Source: Omphalotus guepiniiformis (lineage: Eukaryota > Basidiomycota > Agaricomycetes > Agaricales > Omphalotaceae). From it: DNA of 64,000 bases. The notes beneath the pieces were generated by a model. The model was not told where the DNA came from. It made no database searches and was given only the letters and a program-made list of their open reading frames with translations. Where the stretch lies: positions 1 to 64,000 of the forward strand of contig JAQOOI010000048.1 in the NCBI GenBank assembly GCA_028554645.1, written 5' to 3'. The position numbers were made by a program, and so were the translations under genes. Of the stretch, positions 36,116 through 57,871 are shown piece after piece (within the stretch, counting starts at the first letter, position 1; each line of letters begins with the position of its first letter).

Positions 36116-36120
36116 CTCAA

Positions 36121-36935: not shown

Positions 36936-36937
36936 AT

Positions 36938-37650
36938 TCTGAACTCGGCGGTCATCACCTAACTTGATCTGGCTTCAAATGAACTTGCTTGATTACATAA
37001 TGGTAGACTACAACAAAAGCCTGCGTGAATGTACTGGTAACCTAATGAAATATAACTTGGCTACTTATGAACTTCACCTGCGTATTGAACTTGAGCTGGG
37101 TCTGTAATGAATCCCATGCCACTAATGAACTTCAGCCTTGGAGTAATGAACTTCACCTTCTTGTTCAACCAGAGCCAGGTATGACCATCATTCCATCGTC
37201 AGTAATGAACTCGGGACTTCGTCAATAATGAACTCCAAACTAAAAAATGAACTCTGCCTTTGCTAATGAATTTGCGCCAGGTCCGTAATGAACTCTGTCA
37301 CCACTAATGAACTCGGACTTCGTCAGTAACGAACTTGAGACTAAAAAATGAACTCCACCTTTGCTAATGAATTTGCGCCAGGTCCGTAATGAACTCCGTC
37401 ACCACTAATGAACTCGGACTTCGTCAATAATGAACTTGAGACTACAAAATGAACTCCACCCCTACCAATGAACTTGAGCTTTGTCAGTAATGAACTTCAT
37501 ACCAGACTAATGAACTCCACCTTTGCTAATGAACTTGAACTCAGCACCAATGAACTCCACCCCCACCAATGAACTTGACATTGCACTGATGAAGTCGCAC
37601 CATTAGTAGTGAACTTGACCACGTTAGTAAAAACTTCGGGCACGCACACA
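36938..37650 (-). repeat. Left GAGTTCA array of the KDZ island
   Basis: About 27 copies of AATGAACTC/AATGAACTTG (minus strand GAGTTCATT, CAAGTTCATT) spaced mostly 15-30 bp. A ~115-bp higher-order unit (GAACTCGGACTTCGTCA ... TTTGCGCCAGGTCCGTAATG) is repeated two to three times at 37,190-37,430. The motif reads outward, away from the gene island. The array at 55.4-55.8 kb carries the same RAGTTCA core, also reading outward. Confidence 0.85.
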
Positions 37651-37660
37651 AAGACGAGTT

Positions 37661-40076
37661 TTACTTGGTAGTCCGTGTCGGTCGGTCATAGTAGCGAACA
37701 TTGTCAAATTCGTCGCGATGAATCACTTTTTGAGTGTGCTCATCAACCTCTACAAATCCAAGGCCAGGGACCCAAGACATTGGTTGTCCATCATCCGTCA
37801 ACATCGCATAACCCCTCCATCCCGATGGTGCCCCCGCTCCCCAAAGCTGCTTCTCAGTCCACTCCTTTGGCTGTTCAGGTCGTGGGACACCATTCATGAA
37901 AAGGCTGGGAGTGGCGTCCAAAGGAGCAGGTGCACTGAGACCTCTTGCTCCCAATCGCACTGACGCTCGAGCTGCCGACCGAGCCCGTGGAGAACTCACA
38001 GCCGCCCTCTTCTTCCGTGTTGGTCTTGTTGTACCCATTTCACTGGAACCGATTTCGTGATGCATGATCTCCGAACGCCCGACGTCGATCGCTTTCTCCT
38101 CGCCTGGTGACTCCACTGAGCCCTTGGCAATGCCTTGCCATTCATCTCCCTCTTCTTCCTGGGCAATACCCTGCCATTCTTCTTCGTCTTCTTCCTCGTC
38201 CCCTGGCGTCTTGTCCGACTGTGTAATGCCCTGCCACACCGCTTCGTCATCCTCCCCAGCACCTTCCTCACCCAAAGGAATGTCACCCATCACCATCGGT
38301 GACGATGACTTGACATCGTCCTCAATGCCCTGCCACACCGCTTCGTCATCCTCTCCAGCAGATTCCTCACCCAAGGGAATGTCACCCATGACCATCGGTG
38401 ACAACGATTTGCCATCGACCTCTTCACCCTCACACCATGATTCCTGAACCGACGTTTTATGTGAATGCAGGTTTTGCTGGATAACAGCTTTCGGGTAGAA
38501 CACGAATGGGCACGCCGCCTCGACTCCCGAGTGTTTTCTCATTGAACTATTCACGCTCATGATGTCGCTCAGCTCAAGTAAGTCTGCTGCTACAAGTGGT
38601 CTGGGCATCGTATGCGTTTGTGTATCGTAGAATAGATTTGGAGTCTCCGCAATATCAGCCCATGGGATTGCTGGCATAGTGGTGTCAAAAGGCCAGCTGT
38701 GTTCTGAATGATCAGGTCAGATTCATTGCCCTGCGCAAGGTGTAGAATAAACGAACGTACCCCAAACTCTACTGAAATAAGCGTTATACAACGCACTCTG
38801 TTCCTCACCTGTCATCTTCCACAGATCGACCTCGGGAAAGACCGGAACACCCTCCTTATTCGAGGGTATCTCGTGTTGGCGCTGTCCGTTATCCTGTGTG
38901 TGCACTGCGCATGTTTCGAATGTCAATCAATATCAACTCGAGGCGGCACCAGTTACTCAACGTACCAGCTGAAAGAAATTGTCCGGCCCAAGACGCGTAT
39001 CGGTCAACGTACTCGGTATCGTCCTCCCATTCCTCGCCCTCAGGCTTCCATACAGGGTCAATTGGTAACCTTGAACCGCAAAAATGTAAGTTGATTAGTT
39101 GACAGCGTCAAAGGAACAACTCACATAGTCGCACGTGGACCACTCTCACTCATGTACGCCAGCATCAACTGCATGCCGACTTGTCCTAAGCGTCCAGTAT
39201 CTCGTATGGCAGAGAGTGTGCTGTGAGCCGCTCCTAAGAACTTTGCGCGATTCCTATTCCGAGGCTCAGCTGTATAATTTCAATGAGGAGGGGGGTTTAA
39301 CTTACTCCTTTTCGTTGACGTTTAGTTCACTTGCCCTCTGCTCGTATCGCTCCTTCTCCTCACACTCGCGATAACAGATTGCGAGCGCGCGCGCAAACAA
39401 ACCCGCATTGTTGTTTTGTCGTCCTTCAGCATCATTCGACAGCTGTAGCTCCTTTGCTTTTTTTCTGATTTCCTCTAGTCTCTCCTCCTTGAAGATGTCC
39501 TTGCCGGAAACCCTCGACTGGAACGAGAAAAAGACCGCCGAAGCTTTCGAAGGGTTACTGAAGACCACGCGATCATGGCTTTTGCCTGCGTCGGGGGGAA
39601 CGGGTGACTGTACCGTGTTTGACTCCTCGCTATATTGACGAAAGCGGTAGTTCTTGAAGGCGGAAACAATGTTCTACAGGCGGAAAGTTGTCAGAACCAA
39701 ACCAAACATCTTTCAACTCTCAAGGCCCACCTTAATCAACGCTCTCTGCTCTCTAACTGCCGCAAACTCGGGCGATTCGTCCAGCAGCCTCACTGCTACC
39801 GCCTGCAGCCACGCCAACACCTCAGGCGGGTTTTTGGACCGATACGGCTTCTTTGCCACACGGTTCGCCTCCAAGACGGCAGTCCATGACGGCATCAGCA
39901 TATCCACTCTTGCTTTCTGCTCCGCGGTCAGAACTCCTGTAGGACCTTTTCTTCGTTTATTAGAACGCGCTAAATGACGCGTCAGTGCCTCAGTTGCATC
40001 TACGAAAACCTCTGGGTAGCGTACCTCCATAGTCCACAGGCGCGGTCAGCAGGTCCGAGATTTCCGATGTGTCCAT
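37661..40076 (-). CDS. 692-aa hypothetical protein, seven exons, acidic WQGI repeats
   Basis: Exons 40076-40025, 39969-39731, 39673-39306, 39253-39125, 39069-38966, 38904-38761 and 38703-37661 join to 2,079 nt without a stop, all with GT-AG introns. Residues ~20-220 are basic/helical with RSNKRRKGPTG, EAN(R)VAKKPYRSKNPPEVL and CEEKERYEQRASELNVNEKE, the last recalling the end of an HMG-box helix. Residues ~430-540 are very acidic with four WQGI motifs and a duplicated SSPMVMGDIPLGEE. A basic patch TRPTRKKRAAVSSPRARSAA follows, then a C-terminal GWRGYAML...VPGLGFVEVDEHTQKVIHRD domain. Nuclear role inferred. It is divergent from the 275-aa gene (443 bp between starts). No known family identified. 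Confidence 0.75.
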
Positions 40077-40518
40077 CCGGAAGTTTTCGAACTACGACGG
40101 GTCAGAGGCGGGGGGAGAACTCAGTGTGGGCTGACCAGATGTCAGCTCGCAAACACGACTTGACGTCGTGTGCTCTGGCGACCTGAAAGTCGCGCAAGGT
40201 TGGGTATGGAGAGACGATCAAATTTCCCCCTCGGTTGGCACAGTAAACTTTGTTTGTTGTTTTTCTTGCCTTCTACTTGTTTATTTGGATACCTAGAGAA
40301 AATGATTTTACGGCCTGAGAATTCCAGACTTCAGATCTCCAGATCTGAACACTCGTTAACTTGAAACCAGACAACCAGCAAGTCTACGAAAAATTGACCC
40401 GGCACTGCCGAACAGTCCCTATGTGTACGTGAACATATCTGACTGTACTGACCTCCTCGTAGGGCTCAGGTCATAAAAGCTGATACTTGCTTCCCCTCCC
40501 CTTCTTGTCCTTCCTTTC
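40077..40518. promoter_or_regulatory. Shared divergent promoter region
   Basis: The ~440 bp between two divergent start codons hold no coding sequence of their own. A bidirectional promoter is inferred from the layout; no TATA box was obvious. Confidence 0.35.
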
Positions 40519-41473
40519 ATGCGTCCAGAAGGGTACGTCGAACGATACGGTGAGGTCGCTCTCGTCTATCAAGGCGACAAGCAGACTATGATGCGTGCGA
40601 TCGAGCGTGATCTTGTCAAGCACTTGCGCCGGTTGATCCCTCCACCTCGTGGTGCTCGTGGTCTTCACCTCGACACAGGTGACCGCCACCTCTCTAACAT
40701 CGGTCGCTGGTACGAGGAGGTGAGCCAATATGTCTCAGTGATGACCCAGCCTGACCATTTGCATCACAGCAATTCGTGGAAGCACGCGCTTCCTATTTCT
40801 TTCGTGACCGCCACTACGTTACCCATATCAACTTGCGAGAGTCACATCCCGAAGTCTTCGAAGAGGGTTTCATCGCCGATAGGCTACGCTATCGCGAAGA
40901 TTTGCGTCGCCCCTCTCGGGCTACCACTGGTGCATTACGTGCCACGAGGGCCACTCGCGCGACTGAGCCGTATACCCCGTTCCGAGCGAATCTGTCGTCT
41001 CCTGTTAGCACGTTATCTGCAAGCTCCGCTTCGACCCCGAGGACGCCCCAACGTCAGTACCGCGCAAACGCTTCAAACAGGCCTCGTAGCCTCTCTCCCG
41101 CTACACCCGCTGTAGACTCCCCTTGCCCCACTGGAAAGGTAACTTTGCGCTTCTGGCTTCAGGTACATTTTTCCTGCTCTCACATGCGCGCAAATAGAGC
41201 TAATTTTCATTCCAGGATGGACTCCCCGCTCGCAGGGTAGTCATTTTACTCCACGGCGATTTTCGTCTCTCACTCGATTCCAACAAGATTCGACTGGGCC
41301 AATCTGGCATCGAGACCGGCGACCGCTTCGAGATTTCCAAAAAACGAGCGGTTCGATGGGCCCCAATTAATTGGGACACTGATCTCCGAGTCCAGCCTGG
41401 TGATTTGTTGCTCTTTCGCAAGGTGGGAATCACCAACACTCCAGGGTGGGATCTTTTAGTGAAACAATTTTGA
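40519..41473 (+). CDS. 275-aa hypothetical protein of the KDZ island
   Basis: Exons 40519-40719, 40770-41138 and 41216-41473 (828 nt, phase-0 introns of 50 and 77 bp). The N-terminal third is helical and charged (DKQTMMRAIERDLVKHLRRL, IGRWYEE). The middle has SYFFRDRHYVTHINLRESHP and a Thr/Arg/Ser-rich low-complexity linker (residues ~110-190). The C-terminus looks like a folded beta-rich domain (RVVILLHGDFRLSLDSNKIR ... VQPGDLLLFRKVG). No catalytic motif recognised. The first intron falls after a WYEE codon run, much as in the 236-aa gene (after LQE), so the two may be distant paralogues. Confidence 0.7.
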
Positions 41474-42180
41474 TTACCGCTCGAAGTACATTTGAAAAAC
41501 CAAAAACTGAGAAAAAAGTAGTAGTATTCTGTAGCGATGTGTTTAGATTAGTGGGTCTGTGAAAAATTCATGCAATTGACTTACCGCAAAAATAAAATTC
41601 TTGAAAGTTGCTGCATTCTTCGCTAAGAAACTCAAGAAATAATATTAGAAACTTTGTGTCACAGAACAATCGGGATCTATCAGGGTCGTTACTCAAATCG
41701 ATTTTCAGTTATGTGACCTACCTTCGGGGCAATGCTAACACTTCTAGTTAATCCATCTGACGCGCAACTGCCGATTGGATTCAACGTTCTCCCTTCCCAA
41801 CCAACCCTTCCGGTCAATCTTGATAGCACCACCTGCACGACTGGCGCCCGAAGTTGAGCCTGCACTTCTCGGTCTAGCCATACTGAGATTCAGCACAACT
41901 CAAAAGGATTTCAATGATGACGCCTACCTTCGGAGCAAAGCTCTGAAATTCGATCATTGGTTTTTCCTTCCTTTCTGACCAACACTTCCCGCCAATCTTG
42001 TAAGATCGAACCAGGTGCACGAAAGTGCACCCGCTCCCCACAACCCTCTCGCTCTAGCTATAAGGAGACTGACTGAGCTCTGAGTGCGCCGGCGAGCCCT
42101 GGCCAACAAAAACAAAACTAAATGCGTTTCAGATGAACCGCATGCCTGGGCAGTCCGGCAATACTCATCTTCATTGTGTC
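41474..42180 (+). other. Intergenic, contains a diverged tandem duplication
   Basis: About 110 bp around CCTTCC..ACCAACxCTTCC..CCAATCTTG at 41,790-41,900 recurs at 41,965-42,075. No gene seen. Confidence 0.4.
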
Positions 42181-42735
42181 AGTGACCTATGGTCAATTTC
42201 TCTAACGACGCGACGGTCGGTATGCTCTCTCAACCACAAGTGGAGGTCTTATCCGCCGGACCAAAAAGATATATTTGAAAAAAGGCAATGACCTATGGTC
42301 AAATTGCACTAAACGACACACTGGTCGCCATGCTTGCTGGACCACAAGGAAAGTGGCCACCGCTGGACGAGGCGAACGATAAATTTTGTACGACAGTAGG
42401 GTCTTCCGGTATCAATTTAGGTTCAACAAATATATATTCGTAAGTGGTTATGACCTATGGTCAGATTGCACTGACGACACACCGGTCGCCATGCTTGATG
42501 GACCACAATGAAGTGGCCAACGCCGGACGAGGTGAAGGATAACTTAAGTACGATAGTAGGTAGGTCTTCAGGTAACAACTAGTTGAAGGTACCGGGTCTT
42601 ATCCCGCGGGTCAACAAAGATATATTCGAAAAAATGGTAGTGACCTATGGTCAGACTGCACTAACGACACACCGGTCGCCATGCTTGATGGACCACAATG
42701 AAGTGGCCAACGCCGGACGAGGTGAAGGTTAAGAA
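42181..42735 (+). repeat. Diverged tandem repeat with TGACC-TAT-GGTCA palindromes
   Basis: Three long units (about 160-190 bp) and a partial one share TGACCTATGGTCA..TTGCACTAACGACACACCGGTCGCCATGCTTG.TGGACCACAA and GTGGCC..GCCGGACGAGG. Each unit carries the 13-bp dyad TGACCTATGGTCA (about 42,185, 42,289, 42,451 and 42,640). The array is about 0.5 kb upstream of the 236-aa gene. Confidence 0.8.
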
Positions 42736-42837
42736 AAGAGTGACGATTACTTGGGCTCATGTGAGCCTCGTGGTCCTTTGCTTGCGCGTGATCGTGGAAT
42801 TATTCATCCGATTCACGTGACTTAGCTCCACAACGAC

Positions 42838-43125
42838 AAATGCATATCAACTCTCTTCCAGTACAACTCTGCATTGGGCCTTTTTTTCGTTTTGACGACC
42901 CTTGCGTCGTTCTGTGCGGCGCGCGACTCCAGGTCGCTCGCCGGGCGGCTTCTGCCGTAACAACAAGCGCGTATCAACTCTCTTCCAGTACAACTCAGCA
43001 CTGGGTCTTTTTTCCTTTTTTTTTTTCCTTTTTTTATTTTATTTTGCTTTTTGCTTTGACGACCCTTGCGTCGTTCTGTGTGGCGAGCGACCTGGAGTCG
43101 CGCGCCGGGCGGCTCCTGCCGTAAC
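42838..43125 (+). repeat. ~130-bp tandem duplication near the promoter of the 236-aa gene
   Basis: TATCAACTCTCTTCCAGTAC to GACGACCCTTGCGTCGTTCT and GCCGGGCGGC..CTGCCGTAAC occur twice (42,843 and 42,971); the second copy has a T-rich expansion at 43,008-43,050. A TATATAA box lies downstream at 43,223. Confidence 0.75.
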
Positions 43126-43256
43126 ACCTTCTCCTATCAGAGTGCTGCATGTCCGTAGTTTCGGGTCACCCCAACAGGTATACGCGTCAACCACTGCCTA
43201 CCTGTGATTGGGTGCTGAAGCGTATATAACAGTTCCAACTTGATGCATTGCTCAAC

Positions 43257-44090
43257 ATGGACGTGGACATTCAAAGCGTTGAACCTCACAATGACCCCCT
43301 CAACACGGACGTCCAGAACCTGCTGGGTGTTCTTTCGTCTGTCCCACCTATTGTCTCACCTGCTCGTGCGCTCGAATACATGCTCAAGCATGTCATCTAC
43401 GGCATCGTGCAGCCCGTAGTGAACAACCCCAGGTTCCCTTCGTGTGAACTGGCCCGCTGGATTGATTACGGTCGTAATGACTTCTCACGAATGGGGCAAA
43501 CTCTACAAGAGGTCAGTCAATATGTCCTTACCACGCGCCTCGCTAACAGAATTTACCATTTTACATCTATAGTGTGTGGCCGAAGGGCATGAACATAGGG
43601 AGTGCGCCAACGAGCAGCCCCAACATATGAGGACCAGCTTTCTCCAGCGCTGTGTCCTCGGCACAATGGTTGTCCTTTACGAGCGTGCCGATCGGACAGT
43701 GTGGTCTAGGACCCATGGCCCGACAGACGCGATGAGACGAGCAGTTCCTTGCGGCCCTCTTTGCGACCCGAGGAAACCCTTAGCTTTCAGCACCTCTATT
43801 CGAGGATACGTTCGGGTTGCGTTCAGTGAATTCGTTCGCACTGTTGGGAGGCCTGAAGTATTTAGGCACCGTCTTCACTATAACCCCCATTGGTACACTC
43901 CGCATAACATCGTTGAGGTTCCTGCACCCCGCGCAGCCACTCCAGACTGTCAGTTGTGCCACCCATACTTCCCTGTCATTGATAGCTAACATCGTCTTTC
44001 CCCTCTTCAGCTGATGGAGATACAGCAATGGGATTCTCCTCCCCCGAGCGCGAAGTTATTGATTTGACCTTCCTTGGTTCTAGTCCGTGA
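43257..44090 (+). CDS. 236-aa hypothetical protein of the KDZ island
   Basis: Exons 43257-43511, 43573-43948 and 44011-44090 (711 nt). The start is the first in-frame ATG after the TATATAA box at 43,223. Without the second splice the frame would end at 43,989; splicing at GACT|GTCAGT to CTTCAG adds an acidic tail DSDGDTAMGFSSPEREVIDL, which looks deliberate. The protein has a helical N-terminal half (ALEYMLKHVIYGIVQPVV, LARWIDYGRNDFSRMGQTLQ), a His/Cys-containing middle (CVAEGHEHRECANE) and YVRVAFSEFVRTVGRPEVFR. Function unknown. Confidence 0.7.
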
Positions 44091-44290
44091 TGTATCGTAG
44101 TTTACGAGTTCTGAATAGATTGCTATTGGTTGCATAGAGATCATCACCCCTGCGATCAGAATCCTTTTTTGTCGGTCGTTGAAAAATCATTTGACCTGCA
44201 AAAGAAAATTATGTGGCCGTGATGGATGCCTCGCGGATCCTGCTGGTTTAGATGGTCACACCAGTGTGACTGTCCTCTTATCCTTCATCC

Positions 44291-45155
44291 ATGAGCAACC
44301 CCAGTGATAATGATTTTAGTGGCGACCCTCGCCGAGGTTGCAAGCCCCCATTGTACTGCCTGAAAAGCCCTGTCTATAACAGTGTCACCCCGTCTTATTA
44401 TGTGCTATTCGACGGAGCGAAAGCTGGTATTTATGAGGACTGGTGAGTCCGTGACCTTTTCTTCGAAACAGATATTCTAATGCTCTGCAGGAATCGTGCC
44501 AGCCTTCAAGCGAAAAAGGTGCAGGCCATAACCCGGAAATTCAGCTCGCAGGACTCGGCCTTGAAATGGTGGAGGTTTGCATGCCTTGAAAGTCACGATC
44601 ACCGCGATGGCGAGGACGATTCATTCGTGAATCCTTGGACAGGCACACTGCAACCTTTCGTGGGGTCTCCCTTTTCGCCTTCAGTTCCAGCCTCTGAACC
44701 TTTGCCGTCATCGCCTACCGCTGCAAACCCCTCCACTCATCGCGTCAATCCTCAGCCTGCATCAGTCGCTCAGGGTGCATCAGTGGTGGAGCTCACACAG
44801 CGCTTTCGTCTCTTATCCTCCCCTTCAGGCCCTGCTACACCTACTCGACCTCGTATTCCGGACCCTGCCGATCCTTTTCAGTACATGGGAACTGATCCTC
44901 CGTGCACGTTCTCGCCTGCGAGCCCCAAGAAGAAACGGCAGCAAGCGAAGGGAAAAGTAGTGGATGGTCAGAGTCTGCGGCATGTGGTACAATGGAAGGA
45001 ACAGTGTCGAGTCTTTGAGGATCTGTAAGTGTTCCCCCCTTTACTGTCGCTAAAGACGTTGTAACGCTTGGCGAAACAGAGACGACGCCGTCGGGTTTTA
45101 CAAGGAACTATGTGCTGAGGGAGTGGAAGCTGCACTTCATCCGATGTTTCAATGA
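44291..45155 (+). CDS. 253-aa protein with RNase H1 N-terminal / Cauli_VI-type domain
   Basis: Exons 44291-44442, 44491-45024 and 45080-45155 (762 nt) with introns of 48 and 55 bp. Residues ~35-85 (YYVLFDGAKAGIYEDW, NRASLQAKKV, FSSQDSALKWW) match the hybrid-binding domain found at the N-terminus of eukaryotic RNase H1 and in caulimovirus protein VI, with its YYVVxxGxxxGIYxxW core. A Ser/Pro-rich linker (residues ~105-190) and a basic SPKKKRQQAKGK stretch follow; there is no RNase H catalytic domain. The domain binds RNA:DNA hybrids or dsRNA, so a nucleic-acid-binding accessory role in the island is a reasonable inference. Confidence 0.72.
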
Positions 45156-45642
45156 GTCGTGAATAGCGTTAGTTACATTAACGATAAATATATATTTGGC
45201 TTATAACCACACAACGTCACATTTTATGAGAGTTTTGATGTCAAGTAAGTAGTGCCTGATATATTGATAAGTGGTTAAATAAGTGGTGCCCTGATAGATG
45301 GGGCTGCGTGTGGCGCAGCGCTGTGGCCTGAGCGCTGAGCGCTTAACGAGCCAGTTGATGTGGCGCCGCGGCGCTTAACTTAATATTCTTCCTCCTTCCT
45401 CTACTTCCTCACACAGCTTTGAACGCTATCTCTTGAACACAGGCACTTCATTGTGCTTCTGCAAAACACTAGCACATCTCGTGCTAGTCTAGATCGCGGC
45501 GCCATTTTGGCGTCTGTCACTGTTCCATCGGTTCCATTTGGTGTTTTACTGGTTGCATTGCATAAAGGACTGAGCCGTGCGTTTCCAGTTTCCTTCATGG
45601 CTTGTAATAATTCTCAATACTTCTCATTCCATGTGTAGCATA
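45156..45642 (+). other. Intergenic with a GC-rich palindromic patch
   Basis: 45,300-45,380 contains clustered AGCGCT/GGCGCC-type palindromes (GGCGCAGCGCTGTGGCC, TGAGCGCTGAGCGCTTAA, GGCGCCGCGGCGC). They could form cruciforms; no gene is seen. Confidence 0.45.
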
Positions 45643-47822
45643 ATGTCAGCAACGCACTCAATCAATCTTACCCGCAACAAGGTCGAAGAAGGTGTCGAAA
45701 TCACGTACTCTGACGGCGTAACAGGAGCACTCCTGCCGAAAATCCAGGCGTTCATCACCTCCCCCAACATGATTAGCATTCCAGAACCTCCCTATGGATC
45801 CACTCGAGATATATATCGTCGGTCCGACGCTCGCTATGGTCCGGATGACCCTTGTCGCTGGCCGCAACCTTTCCATCCAACGTATCCTTATCTTGCATGC
45901 ATACCAGTGCGACCTGAAGATGAACTTTGGCCTTTTTGGGATTATCGAGTCATGTGGAGCGATATTAAAGACTGTTACCTCCATTTTTTCCCGGACAGTC
46001 CGACACGACAGGCAATTGTAGGCGGTACCACTGGTTACGCCAATGATTTCAAGGAGGACCTCCAACGAGCCGTGAAAGAGATGGAGGATCGAACACAAAA
46101 GTTCTTCTTGACCTCGTCTGATGGCCGTGACAGAGCTTTGGTAGGGGAACTGCGTCAAACAATGGAGATCTGTTTCATCCACATCACTACCATTGCCTCC
46201 CCTATCCGTGATCTTCAACGAGGGTTGGTGGAATTACAAAGGGCGTGGCTGACTTTGCAGGCCATGTTTGACTATGTCGACACATTCTCTGCGCTGATGA
46301 GGGGTGAAGGACAGGCAGCCACAGTAACGTGCGCCACACGTCTTGGTGCGTTTGTGTGGGACGATGCCCAGGCTTCGTTGCTATTTCGCGCCGGACTCCC
46401 TGTGTACTTTGTGCGACCCTACTCAAGCTTCCGCTGCCAGGTCATTCAGAAGGAGGTGCAGTTAATACAACCTGCCCCACCAAAGATCTGCGTAGCCCAG
46501 GCCAAGCCCCCATACCTTCCTATCGCCACTACACAGGCTGGGTCTGAGACGAAGTTCGCAGCCATTCGTATTTCCGGCATCAATTGTTTCTTAGATGTTA
46601 GCCCTTTCCAAAACAGCCACCATCCGGGGGACTACCAGTCGTCCCATCGGGTTGGGGTCGATCGTATCATTTCCCCTGTGTACTCGCACTCTGCCGCTGC
46701 CCAACCTGCCGAAACGTCGACCGGAGTTATTAGGAATGACCGCATCAATCACGCCGCTGCTGTGAGCCCATACGCCGCTGCTGTGAGCCCATACAGCCAG
46801 TCCAAGAGGGGCACTTCCGCCAAACCTCGGTTTGGAAAGGGCGTGGGGCGTCAGTTTTCAATATCTACTCACACTGAGGCACTCTTACTGATATTCTACC
46901 TTTCAATGTAGCACCACCCGAGGAACGCAATCCTTTCGACGACTATGATTCAACGGATGCAATGGCACCAGCGACGATTCCATCATGGGAGCGAGTCAAT
47001 CTCACCATACAAACTCAGGGCATCACTCAGCAAAAGAAGTTTTTCGTTGTGCCAGATCCCGGTTTGTTCTTTGGCGTCCGAACCGACGGGCGACAGGACA
47101 ACCTTCTCCATCAATGGGAGCATTTCCGTCCAGCGTGGTTGGCGAGATGCCGAGATTTGCAGACGCCTGTGGAGCCACAAAGCACCGAGACGTGGAGAAA
47201 GGTTCTGAACATGCCAACACTGAATACTGATCCTGGTCGGGCGATTGAGACAAAAAAGCAGGCAATAAAGAGTCATGCGTTTCATTTGGTGCGAGACACT
47301 ATGGACCGATTCGGTGGGAAGGCGTCGCCTGTGACTTCGCGAACAGGTCCGTTCGACCGCAGGCGGGGTCAAGTACTTATATGGGAGCTGGCAATGATCA
47401 ACTTCAGACACGAATTGCTTGCAGTTGATCGTCAATTGGACTCTTCGAAACCACGACCGTCAGTCAATGAGAGCGCAGCCCAACTTGCAGTTGCGGAAGC
47501 TCAGCACCGTCGAGCCCGAGAAGCCTTGGTCGACAAAATATTTCAAACAGGGACCACCTTTCAGCCATTCCCTGACGCGAATGTAGGCCTTATTGCAGAG
47601 GATTGGGTGGAACGATATCACGCTCTGAGGCATTTTTGGCGGTTACTGGACACTTGGTCGGGTTCGAAGCCTGTTATCTGGCGACGCGGGATTGATGCAG
47701 ACCTGAACCTGTTACCGTCACGCGGGAAAGAATGGGAGCATAACATTGTTAAATTTTACGTTCAGTCAGCCTTCGTCGTACTCAAACGCCCGCCTGTTCT
47801 ACCTCGTCGCCTGCCTGCTTGA
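45643..47822 (+). CDS. 705-aa hypothetical protein of the KDZ island, two exons
   Basis: Exons 45643-46849 and 46912-47822 (2,118 nt; 62-bp intron GTCAGT...TGTAG). The protein has an N-terminal beta-rich part (NLTRNKVEEGVEITYSDGVT), WPFWDYRVMWSDIKDCYLHF, a helical segment with LQRAVKEMEDRTQKF, a linker with a doubled AAAVSPY, then after the intron a second folded part. That part has KKFFVVPDPGLFFGVRTDGR, a helical AQLAVAEAQHRRAREALVDK and WVERYHALRHFWRLLDTW. I do not recognise a family or active site. Length, intactness and same-strand order with the neighbouring genes suggest it belongs to the KDZ element. Confidence 0.72.
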
Positions 47823-48194
47823 CTATTGCTTTTCTGTTTTTTTTAAAATGTAGTTCAACATGTAGCACTAATCTCCAACATCATCATCACTGTGTTTTTT
47901 GTTGCCAAGCTCAATATTGAATTGTTGTGACCAACATGTGGGGAAGGGGACACTAAGGTGAAAACGCGAGCTGTTTTTTTGGGAAAGGTCGTGCGCGTAC
48001 CGGGATCAGCACGTGGCAGGCAGGCAAATGCAAATGAGGCAATATAGATGAAAGATATGTCGTTCAATACAGACATAACATACTGATCCATCTTCCACCT
48101 TCACCACCTTCACCACCTTCACAAGTTTCACGATTGGCAGTCATATAAGTAAGTACTACATTCTCTGATTGACCACCTCCTCCCCGTTTCCACC
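47823..48194 (+). other. Intergenic, no feature recognised
   Basis: A T-rich run follows the stop codon at 47,835-47,846. CTTCACCACC repeats occur at 48,100-48,125. Confidence 0.3.
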
Positions 48195-48937
48195 ATGTTG
48201 ATAAAGGAAGTAAACTGCAACACTGTCGCATCAGACGAACAGCAAGTGAGAGCAGAAACGAGGTACGTCTCAGGACGTTGTTAGACGCGCAGACAGCCAA
48301 CCACCCCACACCAGTCGAAGGACCGAGCCCGAAACCTCGTCGAACGCGTTGACCTGGAACGAAGTCGCGTTGCGTGGCTTGAAGCACCTCATCACCCCGG
48401 TTACAGCTGAAGATGAGACAAAGTGAGGTTTCGGTTACGCATTCTTACTAGTCTCAGGAGCTGACGAGAAACCCCGAGATCAACGTTGAACGACGCGTCA
48501 ATTCGGAACGCAGTCGCATCTAGAGGAACGAAGCAGCAAGTGACTGCCAAAGAAGGAAAGAGTGGCGCAGAGGCCGCAACATCGTTGAACACGTTGAGTT
48601 GGAACGAAGTTGCATTGCGTGGATTGAAGCATCTTGTTAGGGAGCATACAGCTGAAGAAGAGCCGAGGTGAGTTTCGTGCCGGCTTCGCTTCAGTGTTAG
48701 AAACTGACAACCCCTTTCCAGGCAAAGGCCTGAGAGCGCCACGGAGCAAAAAACGGAAGAGCGGGAAGAGAAAAACAGCTTGAACATGGTATGTTTGAGG
48801 TAACTGAGTGTTGAATGACAGTGCCTCACTGAGATATATAGGGTGTGGACACGTACATCGACAGCTCGTCGTGGTTCAACAATGTCAATGTAGCTACAAC
48901 ATCAGGACTTCAAAACGACGCGGCTCGCAGGAAATGA
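48195..48937 (+). CDS. Putative 185-aa protein with a duplicated exon
   Basis: A model with exons 48195-48262, 48285-48422, 48479-48667, 48722-48788 and 48842-48937 gives 558 nt without stops. Two exons encode the same block: SNALTWNEVALRGLKHLITP and LNTLSWNEVALRGLKHLVRE. The C-terminus is DTYIDSSSWFNNVNVATTSG. The first intron would be only 22 bp, implausibly short, so the 5' part may be misread or the gene damaged there. The duplicated block and the following three introns (56, 54 and 53 bp) are convincing. Function unknown. Confidence 0.45.
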
Positions 48938-48939
48938 TA

Positions 48940-49525
48940 TCAGTCCGGTGCAATGTATAACAGCGTGTTTGTAATACTTTTCATATTTTACAATATTATC
49001 CGTATCGACCCTTATGGACAGCGAAAGCATTGAAATCATATTGCATAAACGATATAGTAAGTACAGATACACGAGCTAGTCCAGACCAGAATTCGAAGAG
49101 GTTATATAGGGGGTGAGTAAGGGCACGAACTAGGGTTAGGTGTTTATTTATCGACAAAATCTCGTGACTCTGAAAACCGTCCGTTGATTGCTACCTTGTT
49201 CCGGTCTTTTCCTCTCTTGTCGCCCGCTCGGGATTACTCCCCTCAAAAAAAGGCCTTTTCCACTTCTCGTGGGACAACCCTCGCGCGACTTTCACGTCGT
49301 GCGCCCACCGACTATCTTGTTGGTTCTATATATTTCCAGATATTAGAGCCACGTCTGGTGGTTACTGGGTAGGCGACTGCAAGTCGTCTCCCTACCGATT
49401 TTCGGTCGGTCCTTGTGTTCCCTGCCTGTCCACGGGCTCACCAAGGAAGGGAAAGAAAGCAACAAAGTTCAAGGTCAGTTAGGACTCACTACCTTCACGA
49501 GTCAACAGTTAACCGCAGGCTGCAG
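48940..49525 (+). other. Upstream region of the KDZ transposase gene
   Basis: GGTTATATAGGGGG at 49,100-49,113 is a possible TATA element. GGGAAAGAAAGC precedes an open 5' region. No other gene. Confidence 0.35.
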
Positions 49526-52500
49526 ATGGCACCGAACCGGAGACGTCCCACCAAACCGGATATTCTCGCTCAAATCTTAGTGGACCGTCCGGCAAAGAAA
49601 CTGCAGAACGCTATTCGTCCTAGTCTACAGGGAGATGGTGCGAATGACATGTCACAGGGAGAGGCTTCGAATTTGAACGTCAACGAGGCGGAAGTGAAGA
49701 CACGAGTACGTTGCTTGCTTGGTACGATGTGTAGGTGCGACAGGCTAAGGATATTCAGTGCAGCGTGCCAATCTTTTGGAGCAGTATGGGATGAGATCCG
49801 AAGCGTTACTTCGTTCTTACATCTCAAAGGACGCAGATCCACGTATAGGACAGCCTTGTTCTTGTGCGGAACGCATTCGGACTACGCGATGCAGGGATTG
49901 CTTCCAGTTAGCGCCACTGTGCAATCAGTGTTTCCTGGCATGCCACACACATTTACCTTTTCATTGGGCGGAGTTTTGGGGACCTGAAGATAGTTACTTT
50001 AGGCGTCACGACCTGTCTGCGCTGAGTCCGCAATGGTCTATCCATCTGGGACACGAAGGAGACCCTTGCCCTTACGGCGAGGATGCTCTGTTGTTGAATG
50101 TCATAGACAGTAATGGTGCACATGCAACTCGAGTTTCGTACTGTCACTGCATGGGTAGACCTGAGAAATGGGACCAACTGTTCGCTGCGAACCTGTTCCC
50201 TGGGTCAGTGGTAGAGCCGAAAACTGCGTACACTTTCAAAGTGCTCAGAGAATTTCAGCTACATTCGGAATCGTCCAAAAAGCACGCGTATGATTACTGT
50301 CGAGCGCTTGCTCAGCTTACCGACTACAACTTTTCGCACACCGCGCCAGAGTTCTACGCCAATTTCCTCGCCATTACGCGCTTATGGGCATTCATGCGAG
50401 CGAACAAATGGTCAGGGCAAGGCCACGGCATTGACAGCGTGCTGACCCATCGCCCCTGTGGAAACCTCGCCGTCTTTTGCCCGAGCTGTCCAGAAGAGAA
50501 CGTGAATATGGAGGATGGTTGGGAGAGTGTACCAAATGATCTCAGGCATCTCCATTCCTGTCGTCGAACACTTGATGGGAATTTTCAGCTCAATCACTTC
50601 AGCAAAAATCACGATGGGACAGACGTCTCATTATACGAAGGACGCTCAATATTTCCGCATCATGAAGAAGAAAAGAAGTATATTGACGAGGTACCACAGC
50701 TTCAGAAGGACGCAGCACATAATAAGCAGGGCATCACGACGGAAAATGGTGAATTGCAGCAATCGAAGGAGGAGAAGGCCAATTGCACCTATTTGAACGC
50801 TATCTCCAGGCAAAACAAGAAAAAGTTCAGGGGAATGGACATTACTGGGGTGGTCAATGTGATGTGTGACCATGGGATACCACAAGGAATCGTGGACCTG
50901 CAGGTTGGCGAACGTTTTGCGAATACGGATTTGGCGTTGGCGCATGCACTGCGTCGGACCAAATTCACAGAGGGTCGTGTTCCAGATCAAGTGCTGAGCT
51001 ACGATAGCCAGTGTAATTATTCTGTACATCTGTTGCAACGATTCTCCGCATGGTTTCCAGATTTGGCCTACGTCATTCGCGACATGCGCTTCACCATTCC
51101 TGCCATGCATGTTCGCAATCATCTCGACATGTGCATGTATCTGTTTGCCTCAGCCTACAAAGAATGCACAGGCCACTTCTACGGAGAGAGTGCGGAGGGA
51201 ATTTGGGGGGAAACAAATGCTCTTGGTCCTGCGGTGAGACAAATGAGCAACGGCCATCGGCAAGATGTGATCATTGAAATGATTATGGCTTGGTCTTCTC
51301 GGAAAGTCTTGAACATGGGTAAGTGCACATAATATCGAAAACAGGGGCCAGCTCACCAACAAAAAGATGCAGGTCAGCAGCTGTATAAGGAGCTCACATA
51401 TGCAGTGAATCGGCACATTCAAGCTCGAGACAATTTTCGTGCTTTATGCGTCATTCACCAGAACGAGCTCGAGGCTTGGAACCAGCAAGATCGTTCTCCG
51501 ACCATCGACAAGAAAAAAAAACGGCTGGTTCATTCGGTCTATGCTCAGGCTTCAAGTAAAGGTGAGAATACGGTCAAGGTCAATGTAATGTAATCTGATG
51601 GATTTTATTGACATGCTGTCTCTCCAGCGCTATCGTTCACGCAGTTGATGCAGAAAATGCTCAAGTCCACTGCAGTCATATCATGCGGCGTCGACGCTGT
51701 GGTACAGGAGACATTGATCGGTCGGTTCCTGAAAGAAGCACTTTCAATTCAGGAAGCTCAGTGCGTTCAATCTGAATCACACTTTTTATCCCGTACTTTA
51801 CTCATATCTCAGCTAGAGCGATCATCAAACACAAGGGGAAGGATGTTCGGGCAACAGGGAGGAGATCAGACGATAAAGCTCAGCAAGAAATAGAAGAACG
51901 AAGAGTGAAGCTCTCGCGAAGGATTGAGAAATTACGCATTCAACAGCCTATAGTAATGCCGAGCATAGAGGACTTGGTGTGTACAGCGAAGCCTTGTGAT
52001 GTGGAGGACGAGGTTCTATGGATCCCTTCAGACGTGCCGGTCGATCAATACCTCGAGCTAGGGCTGGGCGAACTGGCTCAAAAGGAGATTGACCTGCGAA
52101 AGGCATTAGCATGGGATTTGATCCTCGAGTTACAGGCGACCGTTCGCATGCTGACTGCAGCCGGAGACTACAAGGCTGTCCACCATCGTGGTCAGGACCA
52201 GAACACTCGCAGCACAACTGTCATCAACAATTATATTGCAAGGCGAAAGGAACAGTTATATCACTACAATCGTCATCGTCGAGCTCTCGTGAACCTGGGC
52301 GCCATCCAACAGGATTCAGAAGAGTGGCAAGAGCTTCGAGAGGAGGATACATGGCGGCAACAGACTACAGTCAAACGGGGTCCTGGGGCATCGCGGCACA
52401 TGGATGGAGCTTTATGGAGAGCAGGTGCTGCTGCTAGTATATCTATCGAAACTGATCAGGCCAGGAATGGGATGAAGTGGGAGAGGACCGAAAAAGATTC

Positions 52501-53256
52501 ATCATCCACGCAAGAGTCACGAGGAGCAACGGAAATGACAAGACGAAAAGGCAAGTTAGCAACATGTTTGGTCAAGGTCATTATATCTAATTCATTTTTC
52601 TATAGCACCGAAGCGACAGGCATCGCCCACAAAAGGTAGGTATTACGATTATGGTTTTTTCAAGAACCACCTCATGCTAGTCGATTGTAGCCCCGCCAGC
52701 GAAGAAGGCCAAAGATGAGCACACCAGTAGCGAGGACGGATGGATTTGGCGGCGAGGTTTAGATTCTGCCAAGGTGGATGAATGGGCAGAGGAGCGTGAG
52801 TGACGTACAAAAGTGGCTGAACAACATACTGACAGCAAAGTATCTATAGAGGAGAGAGTGAAGTTCTTCCGAGATGAAGCGAACTTCGAGCGATGGGAAG
52901 AACAAGTAGAAATCAAGCATGCCGAATTCATGCGATGTATTCGAGCATTTGCCAAAATGTATGAGGTGTGGTCAAGCCTGGCATCAAAACAATCCACCCC
53001 CGGACACGTGGCTTATGCAAAACAGCAAGCAATCTTGTACAAAAATCTGGAGAAGGAGTGTCGAGACCTCTTCAAGAAGTGCGGGATAGACATACTTCGG
53101 GAAGTACCCCCTGGCTCGACGCTAGCCGACCAGGTGCGCAAGTGGCGGGCCGAGCAGCGGCGCACGTTCCCTATCGTCAAGAGGTTTGTTTCAATGTTCC
53201 CTCTTACGAAGCGCGACACTCATTGGATTTGCCAGTGCACGTCCACCATTTGTTGA
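49526..53256 (+). CDS. KDZ-family transposase, ~1,110 aa, intact
   Basis: Eight exons (49526-49705, 49764-51318, 51373-51561, 51628-51760, 51817-52550, 52606-52635, 52691-52795, 52850-53256) sum to 3,333 nt in one frame. An N-terminal zinc cluster (CSC ... CRDC ... CNQC..ACH, then PFHWAEFW; residues ~85-130) is the CxC module of Kyakuja-Dileera-Zisupton transposases. Putative catalytic residues are Asp in TLDGNF (~331), Asp in SYDSQCNYSVHL (~474) and Glu in SAEGIWGETNALG (~538), with MDITGVVNVMCDHGIPQG between and NGHRQDVIIEMIMAW after. The long C-terminal part is helical (WIWRRGLDSAKVDEW, RVKFFRDEANFERWEEQ, AYAKQQAILYKNLEKECRDL) and typical of the family. Intron 5 uses a GC donor (GGCAAGT). 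KDZ transposases move DNA by a DDE mechanism in the nucleus. Confidence 0.88.
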
Positions 53257-53339
53257 TCCTACGCTGTCCATATAACCAACGGTAATAGGGATGGAGTGCG
53301 AATGTAATATCACGATTGTAAAACCTGTTACTTCAGTTT

Positions 53340-54058
53340 CTCTACCTTCTGTCTGTACCCAGCCAAGATGAATGTCCCCCTGCTTTCCCCACTGTCACTT
53401 CCTCTGTGGACGGATGATAAAGCATACACGAATAACAAGCCTTCCTTTGACATTTTAGCTAACAAAAGCGATATGAATCAATGAAAGGGGCAACAGAAAG
53501 AATAAAATCCAGCAAACCTCTACTCTTTGCCTCTCCCATTCCTTCTCTGACTTTACCGGTCCCGACATCAATCATACCCAAACCCTTCGTTTCGTCAAAC
53601 GCGCCCACTTCCTCCTCTGCTTCGCCAAAACACCATACGATTCTGTAACTTGCGCAGCTCCGTTTGTGCGTAAGCTTCCTTTGCTTTCCGTGCACTAAAG
53701 TCATGCGCGATGAGTAAACCGTACTACCTTTGATGGAGGGGGAGCAGCAAGACGATCTATTTGCTTTTCGACCTTATCTCGTAGTAATTCTCCATAGCTA
53801 CCTATATGATGGCGCATCGTCAAAGGAACGAGAGTAGGTAGAGCACAGAGGAACAAGCCTACCATCCCTTTGTTGGCGGTCCAAATCCATTCGTGCTGCA
53901 AGAACAGCCTTGGCTCCTATTGTTCGTTGAATCTTTATCTGGTATTCTGGCGGTGTCTGTGTGACCAGTTCAGACTGGAAAACGAAACCGGGCTGCCGTC
54001 TCTGGGTCACAGAGGAAAATCCGGCTGCTATCTTTTTCTGAGCGCCCAGAAGCTGTTA
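53340..54058 (-). pseudogene. PRP31: 3' fragment of pre-mRNA splicing factor PRP31
   Basis: Minus-strand exons encode the end of the Nop domain and the C-terminal region of the U4/U6 snRNP protein Prp31: [66 protein letters not shown], then [20 protein letters not shown] and [20 protein letters not shown]. The segment between PPPSK and ARKAKEA is shortened with loss of phase, and an extra T in GTGTTTTGGC shifts the frame after NRMVF. The copy stops inside an intron at about 54,060, so the N-terminal ~60 % is absent. A functional PRP31 must exist elsewhere. It sits tail-to-tail with the KDZ gene, under 100 bp away. Confidence 0.8.
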
Positions 54059-54124
54059 GTAAAAAGAATATGATTAGCGAGTATCCAGCTCATAAACGGT
54101 ACAACCACGATCTCACATGAAAAG

Positions 54125-54604
54125 TGCGCCGCAATAGCGCTAGCACTGCAGCTTTACCCTGGGGCTTTGCACAAGCTGGATCTTCCTGGCTTGCGTAGCA
54201 CTGCTTTGACTTGTCGCTCGTTTCGTTGGCTTACTCATTCCTACTTGTATCGCAATCTCACTATTGTCTGTGAGTACTCCTGGGAGACCGTCAAATACTC
54301 TTTTCAGACTTTCCAGCACAAGGGGCTTGCCCAAGCCTTTGAACGCCTCCAGTTCTTTGCTTCCCCACACATTGCCCCGCTCGTGCGCACATGCTCAATT
54401 CGGTTTCAACGGTGGCCTGATCCCGAGTTTGTACCGATTCTGGACGTGTTCTATCTCTCAGAATCTTTCTTTATTTCAGAACCTACAGACATTGTCCTTC
54501 TACAGTGTCCTCATCACTGCAGAGCGAGCAAGATACGTACCGAGGCACTCTCCATATCAAATTCCCACGGCCGCCAGCAACAAACCGTTTCGGTGAGCTC
54601 GTAA
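54125..54604 (+). pseudogene. F-box-type protein fragment
   Basis: LHKLDLPGLRSTALTCRSFR WLTHSYLYRNLTI has the shape of the second half of a fungal F-box (LPxLRSxALTxRSFxxxxxSxLFRNxxI). It is followed by FASPHIAPLVRTCSI and, after a shift to another frame near 54,400, LSLFQNLQTLSFYSVLI. The F-box N-terminus is missing and the frame is broken, so this is a remnant. It starts ~70 bp from the broken end of the PRP31 fragment, both probably cut by the same rearrangement. Confidence 0.55.
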
Positions 54605-54838
54605 GACTTCCTCTAAAACAGCTAAGGTTGGTCTTTCATATATTCTTCAAAATCAGGTGACGTTGTATTCACCGTGAATCTCGTAGTTAACATCTCATCA
54701 CTAATAGCTTGAGACGATTCATTCAACCACGACGACTTTTGTGGCAACAAACAACTTCGATCTCTCGCTCTCACTTTCGCAATTCACTCTCTCGTCGCAA
54801 ACAACTCTCTTCTCGCGCACCCTTCACACTTTACGGAG

Positions 54839-55282
54839 ATGATAGCGGACAGACCGGGATACCTCTACGTGTTCCATATCGTCGGCACCGATCACTACAA
54901 AATAGGTCGCACGACCAACCTCCGACGACGTAAACAAGAGTGGGCTGCACAGTGTAGAGGGCAACAACAGCACTGGTGCCTCGCGGTACCTGTACGAGAA
55001 TACGTTCGAGCCGGTAAGTTCGTTTTTTTTTGCTGGTTGTCACTCATTCCTTCTTTGCTGTTCAGAAAAACTCTGCCACGCCATGCTGGAAACGTTATGC
55101 GTACGACGCCCGCGAGATACTTGTATTCATTGTGCGTATTTCGTTCGTGTTTTTGTGTGATTCCTCGTAACAGGTTCATAGGCCATCGACGACATTGCGA
55201 GCTTTTCGAGTTTCAGGGAACTCCGGACGTAGTAATTTCGAACATCGTTGCTCCGGTCTTTGTACTCATTTCTTTGCTGTGA
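54839..55282 (+). CDS. GIY-YIG / T5orf172-type nuclease-like protein, 113 aa, second copy
   Basis: Exons 54839-55013, 55066-55131 and 55182-55282 (342 nt), with introns in the same phases as the 7,686 gene. GYLYVFHIVG...HYKIGRTTNLRRRKQEW carries the GIY and YIG strands and a typical Arg-rich helix. HWCLAVPVREYVRAE, RRPRDTCIHC and HRRHCELFEF complete the domain, the last with the expected Glu. It lacks the ~15-residue N-terminal extension of the first copy. Further intron-like segments lie in the 3' untranslated part (about 55,290-55,336 and 55,371-55,405) before the RAGTTCA array. It is the rightmost gene of the island; a role in element mobility is speculation. Confidence 0.76.
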   Translation: MIADRPGYLYVFHIVGTDHYKIGRTTNLRRRKQEWAAQCRGQQQHWCLAVPVREYVRAGKFVFFCWLSLIPSLLFRKTLPRHAGNVMRTTPARYLYSLCVFRSCFCVIPRNRFIGHRRHCELFEFQGTPDVVISNIVAPVFVLISLL

Positions 55283-55404
55283 TTGGAAGGTAAGTTTTAT
55301 TTTATTTTGTGTTCATCTAATCTGACCTGCGTCTGAAAGAATCGTTGATTGTACTTGTACAATACCTGCGTACGATATGTTTATTTTGTTTTTTCTTTTG
55401 TCAG

Positions 55405-55812
55405 TATAAAGCCGAGTTCGTCGAGTTCAAAAGCCTCAAGTTCAATTCAAAAACCTCGAGTTCCATTCAAAAACCGGCGAGTTCAATTCAACAAAAACCG
55501 GCGAGTTCAATTCAAAACCTTCAAGTTCAATTCAAAAGTCGTTGAGTTCAAAACCTTCAAGTTCAATTCAAAAGTCGTTCGAGTTCAAATGTTTCGAGTT
55601 CAAAACCTTCAAGTTCAATTCAAAAGTCGTCGAGTTCAAATGTTTCGAGTGCAAGTTCATTTCCAGGCCAAAATGCTCAAGTTCAAATCCACTCAACGCA
55701 AGTTCAATACATTCCTCAAGTTCAAATCCCAACGGCGAGTTCATTGAATCACGACCGAGTTCAAACCAAGTTCATTTCTACACGACGGGAGTTCAAACGG
55801 GTGCATATTAAT
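55405..55812 (+). repeat. Right GAGTTCA array of the KDZ island
   Basis: About 20 copies of CAAGTTCAATTC, GAGTTCAAA and GAGTTCATT alternate with short spacers (AAAACCTTC, AAAGTCGTC). The motif reads outward on the plus strand, the mirror image of the left array at 36.94-37.65 kb. Open frames here are low-complexity artefacts of the repeat. Confidence 0.85.
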
Positions 55813-57870
55813 ATTATTGTTATTTACTACTGTACTGTACATTCCGTTGTAATGTATTTACAACACTGGGCCCGATAAAGCATAGTTCCCATGGCATTAT
55901 GTGAGAAATATGCTGATAATATTTTGAGAATTATTAATGTAAGTCTTGAGATTTATCAAAAACTTATTTAAAAAAAAATTTCTTAGAGTTATAATATATC
56001 TACCATACTTCTACAGTAAGTTCCAGAGGGTAGTATGGTATCTTGAGAGTGTGACAAATTGTCACAATGTAAGTCTTCCATTAGTCCACCAAGAATTATG
56101 GAAGTCTTATTTAAAAAAAATATTATTATAAATTTCTTTGGCTATATACTGGATTTACACTATACATATGGGAGTATATATCTCTTGCACTGCATATGCC
56201 TTACAGTCAAGATATCTCCAGGAACAATCTAATAGAATAATAAAAAACACATGTAATTCTATACTGATCTAAACAATAAATATCATTTCAGTTTCTAGGG
56301 AAGTATTGAAAATTCATTTGCATAGTTTCAGGAATCTATATATAAGTAATATACATAGTATCATCATATTCTCATGAAATTCTCATGAAAGTATTGATAT
56401 TAGATTATAATACTTTCAGAGAAATATTGAATGTTAGTTTGCATAATTCCACAGATACATTGAAAAGTGGTTTACATGGTATCAACATAAATCTGAAGAA
56501 GTATTGATTTGTAATTCACATACTGTTATCATACCTCTAGAGAGAAGTATTTAATGATGGTTTACATAGTTCCAGAAATATATTCAAATTTAATCCATAG
56601 AATTACTATGAATTTAGAAAAGTATTAATAATAATTGGCATTATGATTGTTTTAGAGAAATATTGAAAGTTGATTTGTACAGTTTAAGTGATCCATTCAA
56701 AGGTTGTATTATACATAGTATTAGTATTTCCAGAAAGATCTTGATACTGGATTATGATAGTTTTAGAGAAGAATTGAATGTTAGTATGATAACTCTAGAG
56801 ATACATATAAAAGTAGCATAGAATAAAAATAAATCTAGAGAAGTACTGAAGTATATTCCATATACTGCCACTATACTTCCAGAGAAGTAGTATTATTGAA
56901 TTATCATATTTTCAGAGAGGTATTAGATGATAGTTTACATAGTCCTAGTGGTTTCCATAGATTTACAATAATTTTAGGGAAGTATTCAAATAAAATCAGC
57001 ATTGTTTCAGAGAAATATTGAAGGTTGATTTGTATAGTTTCAGTTACTCAAAGGTTGAATTATACATAGTATTAGTATTTTCAGAAAAATCTTGATACTG
57101 GATTATGATAATTTTAGAAAAGAATTGAATGTTAATTTGATAACTCCAGAGATACATATAGAAGTGGTTTACACAGTATCAACATAAATCTGGAGAAGTG
57201 TTAGTATGTGATTCTTCCATTTTCACACTTTCAGAGAAGTATTAATTATTAGTTTGCATAATTCCACAGAAGTATTAATATGTGGTCTACATAATGTCAT
57301 CATGTCTTAATATCACAGTTCAGAGAAGTATATTAGTTTGCCTAGTTCCAGAGATATACTCACAAGTAAAACCATAGTATTATCATAATTTCAGAGAAAT
57401 ATTGATAATAAATTGTAATGGTTTCAAGAAAGAATAATAGTTTGCATAGTTTCAGATATATATTCAAAAGTGATTTCTGTAAAATCACCATAATTTTAGG
57501 GAAGTATTAATATTGGATTTTCACAAGTCCAGAATAATATTCAATATCAGTTTGCATAACATCACAGAAGTATTAATATGCAGTCTACATAGTACCAGCA
57601 TAAGTCAATAAAGATATTGATATTGAATTACCATAGTTCCAGTGAAGTATTGAATATTAGATTGCATAATTTTAAGATACTATTTGAAAGTTGTTTCCAT
57701 AGTATTACTATACTTTCAGAAAAGTATTAACATTGAATGATAATAGTGTCAGAGAAGTAGTGAAATGTGATCTACATAGTGTTACCATAGTTCAAGAAAA
57801 TTATGGATATGTTATTTACATAGTGTTATTGTAGTGTCAGAGAAGTATTGATATTGAATTATCACAATTC
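55813..57870 (+). repeat. AT-rich degenerate satellite
   Basis: From about 56,280 short related phrases recur: TTTCAGAGAAGTATTGA, TTAGTTTGCATAGTTCCAGAGATA and TTTACATAGTATCA. A longer block of ~170 bp at 56,645-56,815 recurs at 57,010-57,180, indicating a ~370-bp higher-order repeat. 55,813-56,270 is AT-rich with TTTAAAAAAAAAT tracts. No gene. Confidence 0.65.
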
Positions 57871-57871
57871 C

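Follow-up and report, generated by a model that had tools for sequence, protein, structure and literature searches.

The window analysed here is the 64,000-nucleotide stretch at positions 1-64000 of contig C49 (JAQOOI010000048.1) in the Omphalotus guepiniiformis assembly GCA_028554645.1 (42.5 Mb in 80 contigs), and its gene content is fungal. Between positions 36917 and 55863 it carries 18,947 bp of a KDZ element on the plus strand, in which a KDZ transposase gene and seven further genes or open reading frames (ORFs) lie between two arrays of the short motif RAGTTCA; the last 87 bp of the same element are found on another contig (C31:129458-129544). We regard this unit, with a probability of about 0.8, as a recently active, autonomous-type DNA transposon of the KDZ superfamily in an agaric, whose arrays would act as docking sites. 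Its insertion as a unit is shown by three copies with shared ends, by copy-specific target-site duplications (TSDs) and by an empty site. An initial annotation had placed a composite element at 36938-55812. The region stands, and the exact ends are corrected: the start lies 21 bp further left and the end 51 bp further right, plus the 87 bp in C31. The label composite is abandoned, since there is one pair of ends only and the gene set is largely conserved.

The genome search for further copies with shared end points that had been proposed with the annotation found two, giving full copies on three contigs (the window, C36:157736-176754 and C79:63327-82355), which are 19.02-19.03 kb long and have common end points. 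Aligned over the whole unit, the C36 and C79 copies are 99.5% and 99.4% identical to the window copy, and all three diverge abruptly at the identical left base. Across ~18.9 kb, 41 substitutions and 7 indels separate the window and C36 copies, 42 and 5 the window and C79 copies, and 62 and 6 the C36 and C79 copies (0.2-0.3% substitutions); given this low divergence, the copies are recent. The left array region matches 3 places in the assembly and the right array region 4. A relative in C75 is 94.7% identical across the final 1.6 kb of the window element, and no left end was found for it within the C75 locus read. The supposition that other copies of the KDZ gene keep the arrays and the neighbouring genes was borne out in both other full copies, and also in two diverged relatives, in C38 and C41.

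The C38 element (88781-103155, 14.4 kb) has the TSD GAAAACG, outward arrays and an imperfect terminal inverted repeat (TIR) of ~55 bp, while the C41 element (161493-182855, 21.4 kb) has the TSD CGCTACT and a TIR of ~70 bp. A further relative, in C72, shows a right-end array and the terminal motif; separately, a 1.5-kb insertion at C72:148740-150246 interrupts the KDZ gene there and is 92.6% like window 34642-36136. A short non-autonomous element of ~1.1 kb is positioned 8 kb from the full copy in C36 (C36:184737-185856, TSD CAGTCGT). It carries arrays, its TIR resembles the C41 element's right end (85-86%), and five places (C36, C16 twice, C22 and C65) show inverted end pairs with a spacing of ~1.0-1.2 kb. 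This derivative has retained arrays and TIR and is too short to hold the gene set. More diverged is a KDZ-plus-D element in C42, both termini of which lie outside the part read; its array of 16 TGTTCA motifs (C42:176789-177179) is located ~2.3 kb beyond the KDZ match, which suggests that arrays with a GTTCA core predate the window family.

The right terminus of the C36 and C79 copies reads ...CTAGTTATTTTACGG and is followed by a repeat of the 7 bp preceding the left end (GCTCCCG in C36, CCACGCA in C79). In C31 the missing 87 bp are followed by AAATGAG, the 7 bp directly before window position 36917. The 7-bp length is firm in the C36 copy, where the adjoining bases differ on both sides; in the C79 copy a G follows the repeat on both sides, and the common element start still fixes the TSD at 7 bp. 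Exact, copy-specific 7-bp TSDs are observed in all six insertions with both ends read, representing four element families, and the window family does not show the 8-bp TSD that is the Zisupton criterion. The TIR of the window family is imperfect and ~43 bp long; alignment of the ends yielded both a TIR and TSDs where the earlier reading by eye had found neither. The right ends of the C38, C41, C72 and short elements and of the window family (C36 and C79 copies) share a terminal motif, GTAA-N2-5-AACYAGT, which the window family also carries at its left end; a stray match outside any element end lies at C41:189952. The features common to the element families are this terminal motif and the array core.

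Searches for empty sites covered two of the six insertions, those of the window and C38. Four loci match the rejoined flanks of the window copy over their full length (99, 96, 96 and 96% identity); of the other rows among 13 in total, 7 span the junction with a 169-bp match of 75% identity, and 2 are the insertion's own halves. The joined flanks of the C38 insertion are uninterrupted at 35 loci (94-100%) and at 3 more (76-77%) among 40 scored of 101 candidates, the other 2 of the 40 scored rows being the C38 halves. The empty site sought in the initial annotation is therefore available within the same assembly, as uninterrupted paralogous sites.

The window copy stops at 55863, 87 bp early, because a CACTG..CAGTG element, flanked by a 3-bp duplication (CAA) and possessing near-identical inverted ends of at least 1.5 kb, was later inserted at 55863/55864 and split off the final 87 bp. 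Its junctions are TACAA/CACTGGGCCC and GGGCCCAGTG/CAATG. Matching insertion borders are present in the window and in C31 (129548 onward), and the assembly therefore broke inside the nested element; as that element stands at both borders, contigs C49 and C31 flank a single insertion. Inside or beside the nested element (window 57743-59325) there are long tandem repeats rich in GCTGCT/GCATCAGCT.

The arrays face outward at both ends. Window 36917-37640 holds 24 RAGTTCA motifs on the minus strand and none on the plus strand, and window 55401-55863 holds 19 on the plus strand and none on the minus strand, which upholds the inverted outward arrangement first reported with counts of ~27 and ~20. Dinucleotide shuffling of the window (100 replicates) gave clusters of at most 4 motifs (700 bp) and 3 motifs (450 bp). 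For comparison among elements, the core GTTCA was counted in outward and inward orientation over the terminal 500 bp, or 250 bp for the left end of the short element. Outward to inward counts are 14:1 (left) and 19:0 (right) in the window, 19:1 and 22:2 in the C38 element, 22:0 and 20:0 in the C41 element, 23:0 at the right end in C72 (an end placed by the terminal motif only, with no TSD read), and 16:1 (right) and 4:0 (left) in the short element. Inside three elements the motif occurs at 0.5-1.0 per 500 bp per strand. Outward GTTCA-core arrays at all nine ends counted, in five related elements, show that the arrays are a family trait.

The genes were modelled from six-frame ORFs and splice sites, with introns of 48-66 bp, and the models of genes A, B, C1, C2 and D, once spliced, are free of internal stops (Table 1). 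The KDZ protein matches the KDZ domain in Pfam (PF18758, 5.6e-44, over positions 6-216/217) and the CxC2 domain (PF18803, 5.2e-26). The gene had been described as intact, which agrees with a domain free of stops and with an open frame that reads through with the next three exons, the terminal 5' and 3' exons being modelled incompletely. Eight other gene models had been proposed beside it; our modelling gives seven genes or ORFs. A KDZ domain with an N-terminal CxC cluster, on a mobile unit with TIR and TSD, places the element in the KDZ superfamily. T5orf172, detected in the ORF near the right array, is a domain that we take to be a GIY-YIG-type nuclease; this ORF (GIY) has no sequence match in the PDB at E<=1. 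Gene C2 gives weak matches only in the PDB, to RNase H1 (E 0.24-0.56). Named homologues of gene D, six of ten matches, are from Lentinula, Stygiomarasmius, Gymnopus, Marasmius (two) and Collybiopsis. A conserved PrpF/DUF453 gene next to the C36 copy reaches no more than 60% identity among the 120 matches listed (Lentinula, Gymnopus), and numerous other agaricomycetes follow closely.

Table 1. Features of the KDZ element and its borders, with positions in the window
Feature	Position	Strand	Details
Left target-site duplication AAATGAG	36910..36916	unstranded	Right copy in contig C31
Left imperfect TIR GTAAATTTTAACCAGTTC...	36917..36960	+	Aligned with the right end of the C36 copy; holds one TGAACTC motif
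Left subterminal array	36940..37616	-	24 RAGTTCA; steps mostly 18-23 bp or 40-41 bp
Gene A	37661..40030	-	6 exons, ~694 aa; conserved in C38, C-terminal part in C41
Gene B	40519..41473	+	3 exons, 283 aa; conserved in C38, C41
Gene C1	43257..43989	+	223 aa; conserved in C38, C41, C72
Gene C2	44291..45028	+	229 aa; Cauli_VI / RNase H1 N-terminal domain, PF01693 4.4e-6
Gene D	45643..47822	+	2 exons, ~705 aa; domain and fold searches negative
KDZ transposase	49749..53253	+	CxC2 and KDZ domains, conserved C-terminal exons; 5' exon(s) and last junctions partly modelled
F-box-like ORF	54074..54601	+	Weak match, E 0.027, below cut-off
T5orf172 ORF (GIY-type)	54713..55279	+	E 1.9e-5; homologue at same place in C38
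Right subterminal array	55423..55795	+	19 RAGTTCA; steps 11-26 bp, one of 41
Nested CACTGGGCCC... insertion, start	55864..57360	+	TSD CAA; 1,497 bp recurs at 99.9% in C31 beside the missing 87 bp

Elsewhere in the window, positions 29160-29743 form a perfect 320-bp tandem repeat of 1.8 copies.

Related elements were compared by tblastn over the C38 element, the C41 element without 162.5-165.0 kb, and the fetched part of C72, with the C72 left end outside the part read. Six gene blocks (A, B, C1, D, KDZ and GIY) recur in C38 with the order and strands that they have in the window, although the KDZ gene there is only ~65-67% identical. The C41 element retains the C-terminal part of A followed by B, C1, C2, D and KDZ, and the fetched part of C72 retains C1, part of C2, D and KDZ. 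In all nine exon comparisons, made for KDZ, D and GIY, the proportion of nonsynonymous differences (pN) is 0.18-0.38 versus a saturated synonymous proportion (pS) of 0.77-0.88, which shows, at the level of sequence comparison, purifying selection on these three genes. The gene set is thus largely conserved and syntenic, and most of the neighbouring genes are probably not random cargo.

A mechanism can be proposed in which the KDZ transposase would cut and join at the TIRs, and several copies of a protein would dock at the arrays: either the transposase itself, through its CxC2 cysteine cluster, or a companion (D, or C2 or A). CACTA elements offer a parallel, in that the protein TNPA brings their ends together via subterminal motifs; likewise, an element-encoded protein bound to the arrays could pair the two distant ends in the correct orientation. 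Candidate array binders are the CxC2 cluster and the products of D, A and C2. A docking role is proposed because the outward rule holds at nine ends, the motif core is kept while the TIRs differ, and the short derivative keeps its arrays. The remaining conserved genes may serve transposition, repair or escape from silencing, and the F-box-like ORF may be a family-specific passenger. Tentatively, one can go further and picture a KDZ lineage with a CACTA-like two-component system, where a companion (D, A or C2) would coat the arrays and be needed together with the KDZ enzyme to move the 14-21-kb units and to mobilise the short elements; we think this possible, and less likely than not to be correct in full.

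Several observations weigh against the interpretation of the unit as a transposon with a functional gene set and array docking sites. On the side of the genes, Pfam gave no match over the cut-off for A, B, C1 or D, no homologue of gene A at E<=0.001 was found among 7,995 candidates scored, and the predicted fold of gene D (a weak model, with a mean predicted local distance difference test score of 63.1) gave no Foldseek match in the PDB at E<=0.001, the best having E 0.9. By tblastn, C2 was not matched in C38, GIY in C41 or C72, or A and B in the fetched part of C72, and the F-box-like ORF found no match in C38, C41 or C72. The selection test covered D, KDZ and GIY. These gaps in gene content would fit a history in which the genes other than KDZ are host passengers, captured as in Starships and playing no role in transposition. 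Gene D occurs at 21 places in the genome (30 rows merged; 98 KDZ rows were merged into 55 places); at 8 of them no KDZ match was detected within 20 kb, the place in C12 falling just beyond that limit at 20.8 kb, which also fits capture. The other 13 have a KDZ match inside this distance, compared with ~1.1 expected by chance, with the reservation that these 13 include the three window-family copies, so that not all are independent, and that the chance figure ignores the clustering of repeats. This association, the purifying selection on D, the preservation of A, B, C1 and D in order and strand beside so diverged a KDZ gene in C38, and the run of genes retained in C41 all argue against capture, which we consider quite unlikely. 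In C7, C19 and C78:327-344k, gene D lies ~16 kb from KDZ on the opposite strand, a layout that suggests a second element architecture.

The arrays raise a similar question, as they have a tandem-repeat structure (reported by Tandem Repeats Finder), differ in length among the three full copies and could in part be products of slippage. The left TIR itself holds the motif, and the arrays might then be functionless neutral minisatellites grown by slippage from it. Genome-wide, the pattern AGTTCA-N6-30-AGTTCA-N6-30-AGTTCA gives 222 matches versus 13 for its reversed control, and the listed part of these matches, on contigs up to C49, merges into 21 places. Among these, 8 are the ends of four KDZ elements and 5 match the short non-autonomous element (C14 at 73% only), whose TIR is similar to the end of a KDZ element. 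Arrays are thus also present apart from KDZ genes, and the initial expectation that they would be connected with transposase genes is borne out only in part. The other 8 (C13, C17, C20, C30, C31, C35 twice and window 24390) are tied to neither and speak partly against a strict link between array and KDZ; two of them, C35:211557 and window 24390, are one plain 13-bp tandem repeat. The C42 array is also less strand-pure, with 17 GTTCA on the plus and 7 on the minus strand over 1 kb. Slippage without function is nevertheless an unlikely account of arrays that point outward at every end counted in five elements with differing TIRs, that keep the GTTCA core while spacers and flanking bases differ, and that are retained in the short non-autonomous element. 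As for the insertions themselves, the division of the window copy between contigs C49 and C31 is what an assembly artefact or a segmental duplication might leave behind. The 7-bp TSDs in six of six insertions, the sharp common ends with differing flanks and the uninterrupted paralogous sites for both insertions tested make that explanation exceedingly improbable, and the TSDs and empty sites rule out a composite or segmental-duplication reading. Recent transposition of a KDZ element with its arrays and companion genes is the interpretation that we retain.

CACTA/EnSpm transposons carry many short motifs in inverted orientation at both ends, together with CACTA termini and a 3-bp TSD. The inverted subterminal arrays of the window element resemble these, as a working likeness only: the superfamily is another one, and the element has GTAAA ends and a 7-bp TSD. 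Starships carry a tyrosine-recombinase captain gene at one end, in contrast to the window element, where Pfam scans of the ORFs gave no match to such a captain. We also considered TET/JBP cargo and dropped it, as no Pfam match to TET/JBP was found among the proteins scanned (20 element ORFs and the spliced models A, B, C1 and C2), a result that does not prove complete absence.

Within the KDZ superfamily, Kojima 2025 (PMC12730594) gives TSDs of 7 bp for Kyakuja and 8 bp for Zisupton, and describes two Laccaria Kyakuja families with 5'-CA..TG-3' ends, no TIRs and a TET/JBP gene. The window element shares with Kyakuja a KDZ transposase, an agaric host and a 7-bp TSD (PMC12730594). It differs in its ends (GT..GG in the window family, CA..AG in the C41 and short elements), in the TIRs of ~43-70 bp and arrays seen here, and in the unmatched TET/JBP gene. 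The TSD length thus points to Kyakuja, while the ends and TIRs are unlike those of published Kyakuja elements, as compared by description. Cryptococcus neoformans KDZ1-KDZ3 (9-11 kb; TIRs of 139-241 bp; TSD of 8 bp in KDZ1, or 4-8 bp; CxC1) are likewise large mobile KDZ elements with TIRs and TSDs, whereas the window element has CxC2 and not CxC1 (PMC12810828). The word subterminal is absent from the main text of both papers (PMC12730594, PMC12810828). Giant KDZ elements with accessory genes are described from the algae Ectocarpus (up to 30.3 kb) and Chlamydomonas (31.7 kb); they are alike in size and accessory genes and differ in host, and the parts of that paper covered here do not mention arrays or the syntenic gene set (PMC12477816). 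KDZ elements, as well as Plavaka, are abundant in the mushroom Marasmius oreades, which may be a relative, and according to the sections of that study covered here its KDZ TIR motifs are characterised in the supplement; parts of the present findings may be in print there (PMC8290104).

Giant multigene KDZ elements and the 7-bp duplications of Kyakuja are accordingly already published, which qualifies the initial statement that no described KDZ element with such arrays and cargo was known. For the combination itself that statement holds within the open-licence papers searched, where no description of the arrays (including under the phrase "subterminal repeats"), of the present gene set or of the short derivative was found. 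What makes this element interesting is that its arrays are a family trait and that its companion genes are conserved.

To our knowledge, KDZ is one of the least understood superfamilies of DNA transposons, and we know of no account of the DNA that its transposase recognises. This question becomes testable here through natural variation, as the array motif is kept at the ends of elements with differing TIRs, and a natural substrate of ~1.1 kb occurs beside autonomous-type elements of 14-21 kb. The conserved companion genes provide a concrete list of what a giant transposon may need beyond its transposase. If the two-component system proposed above is true, these elements would perhaps, at a guess, possess the most gene-rich machinery among the DNA transposons of mushrooms.

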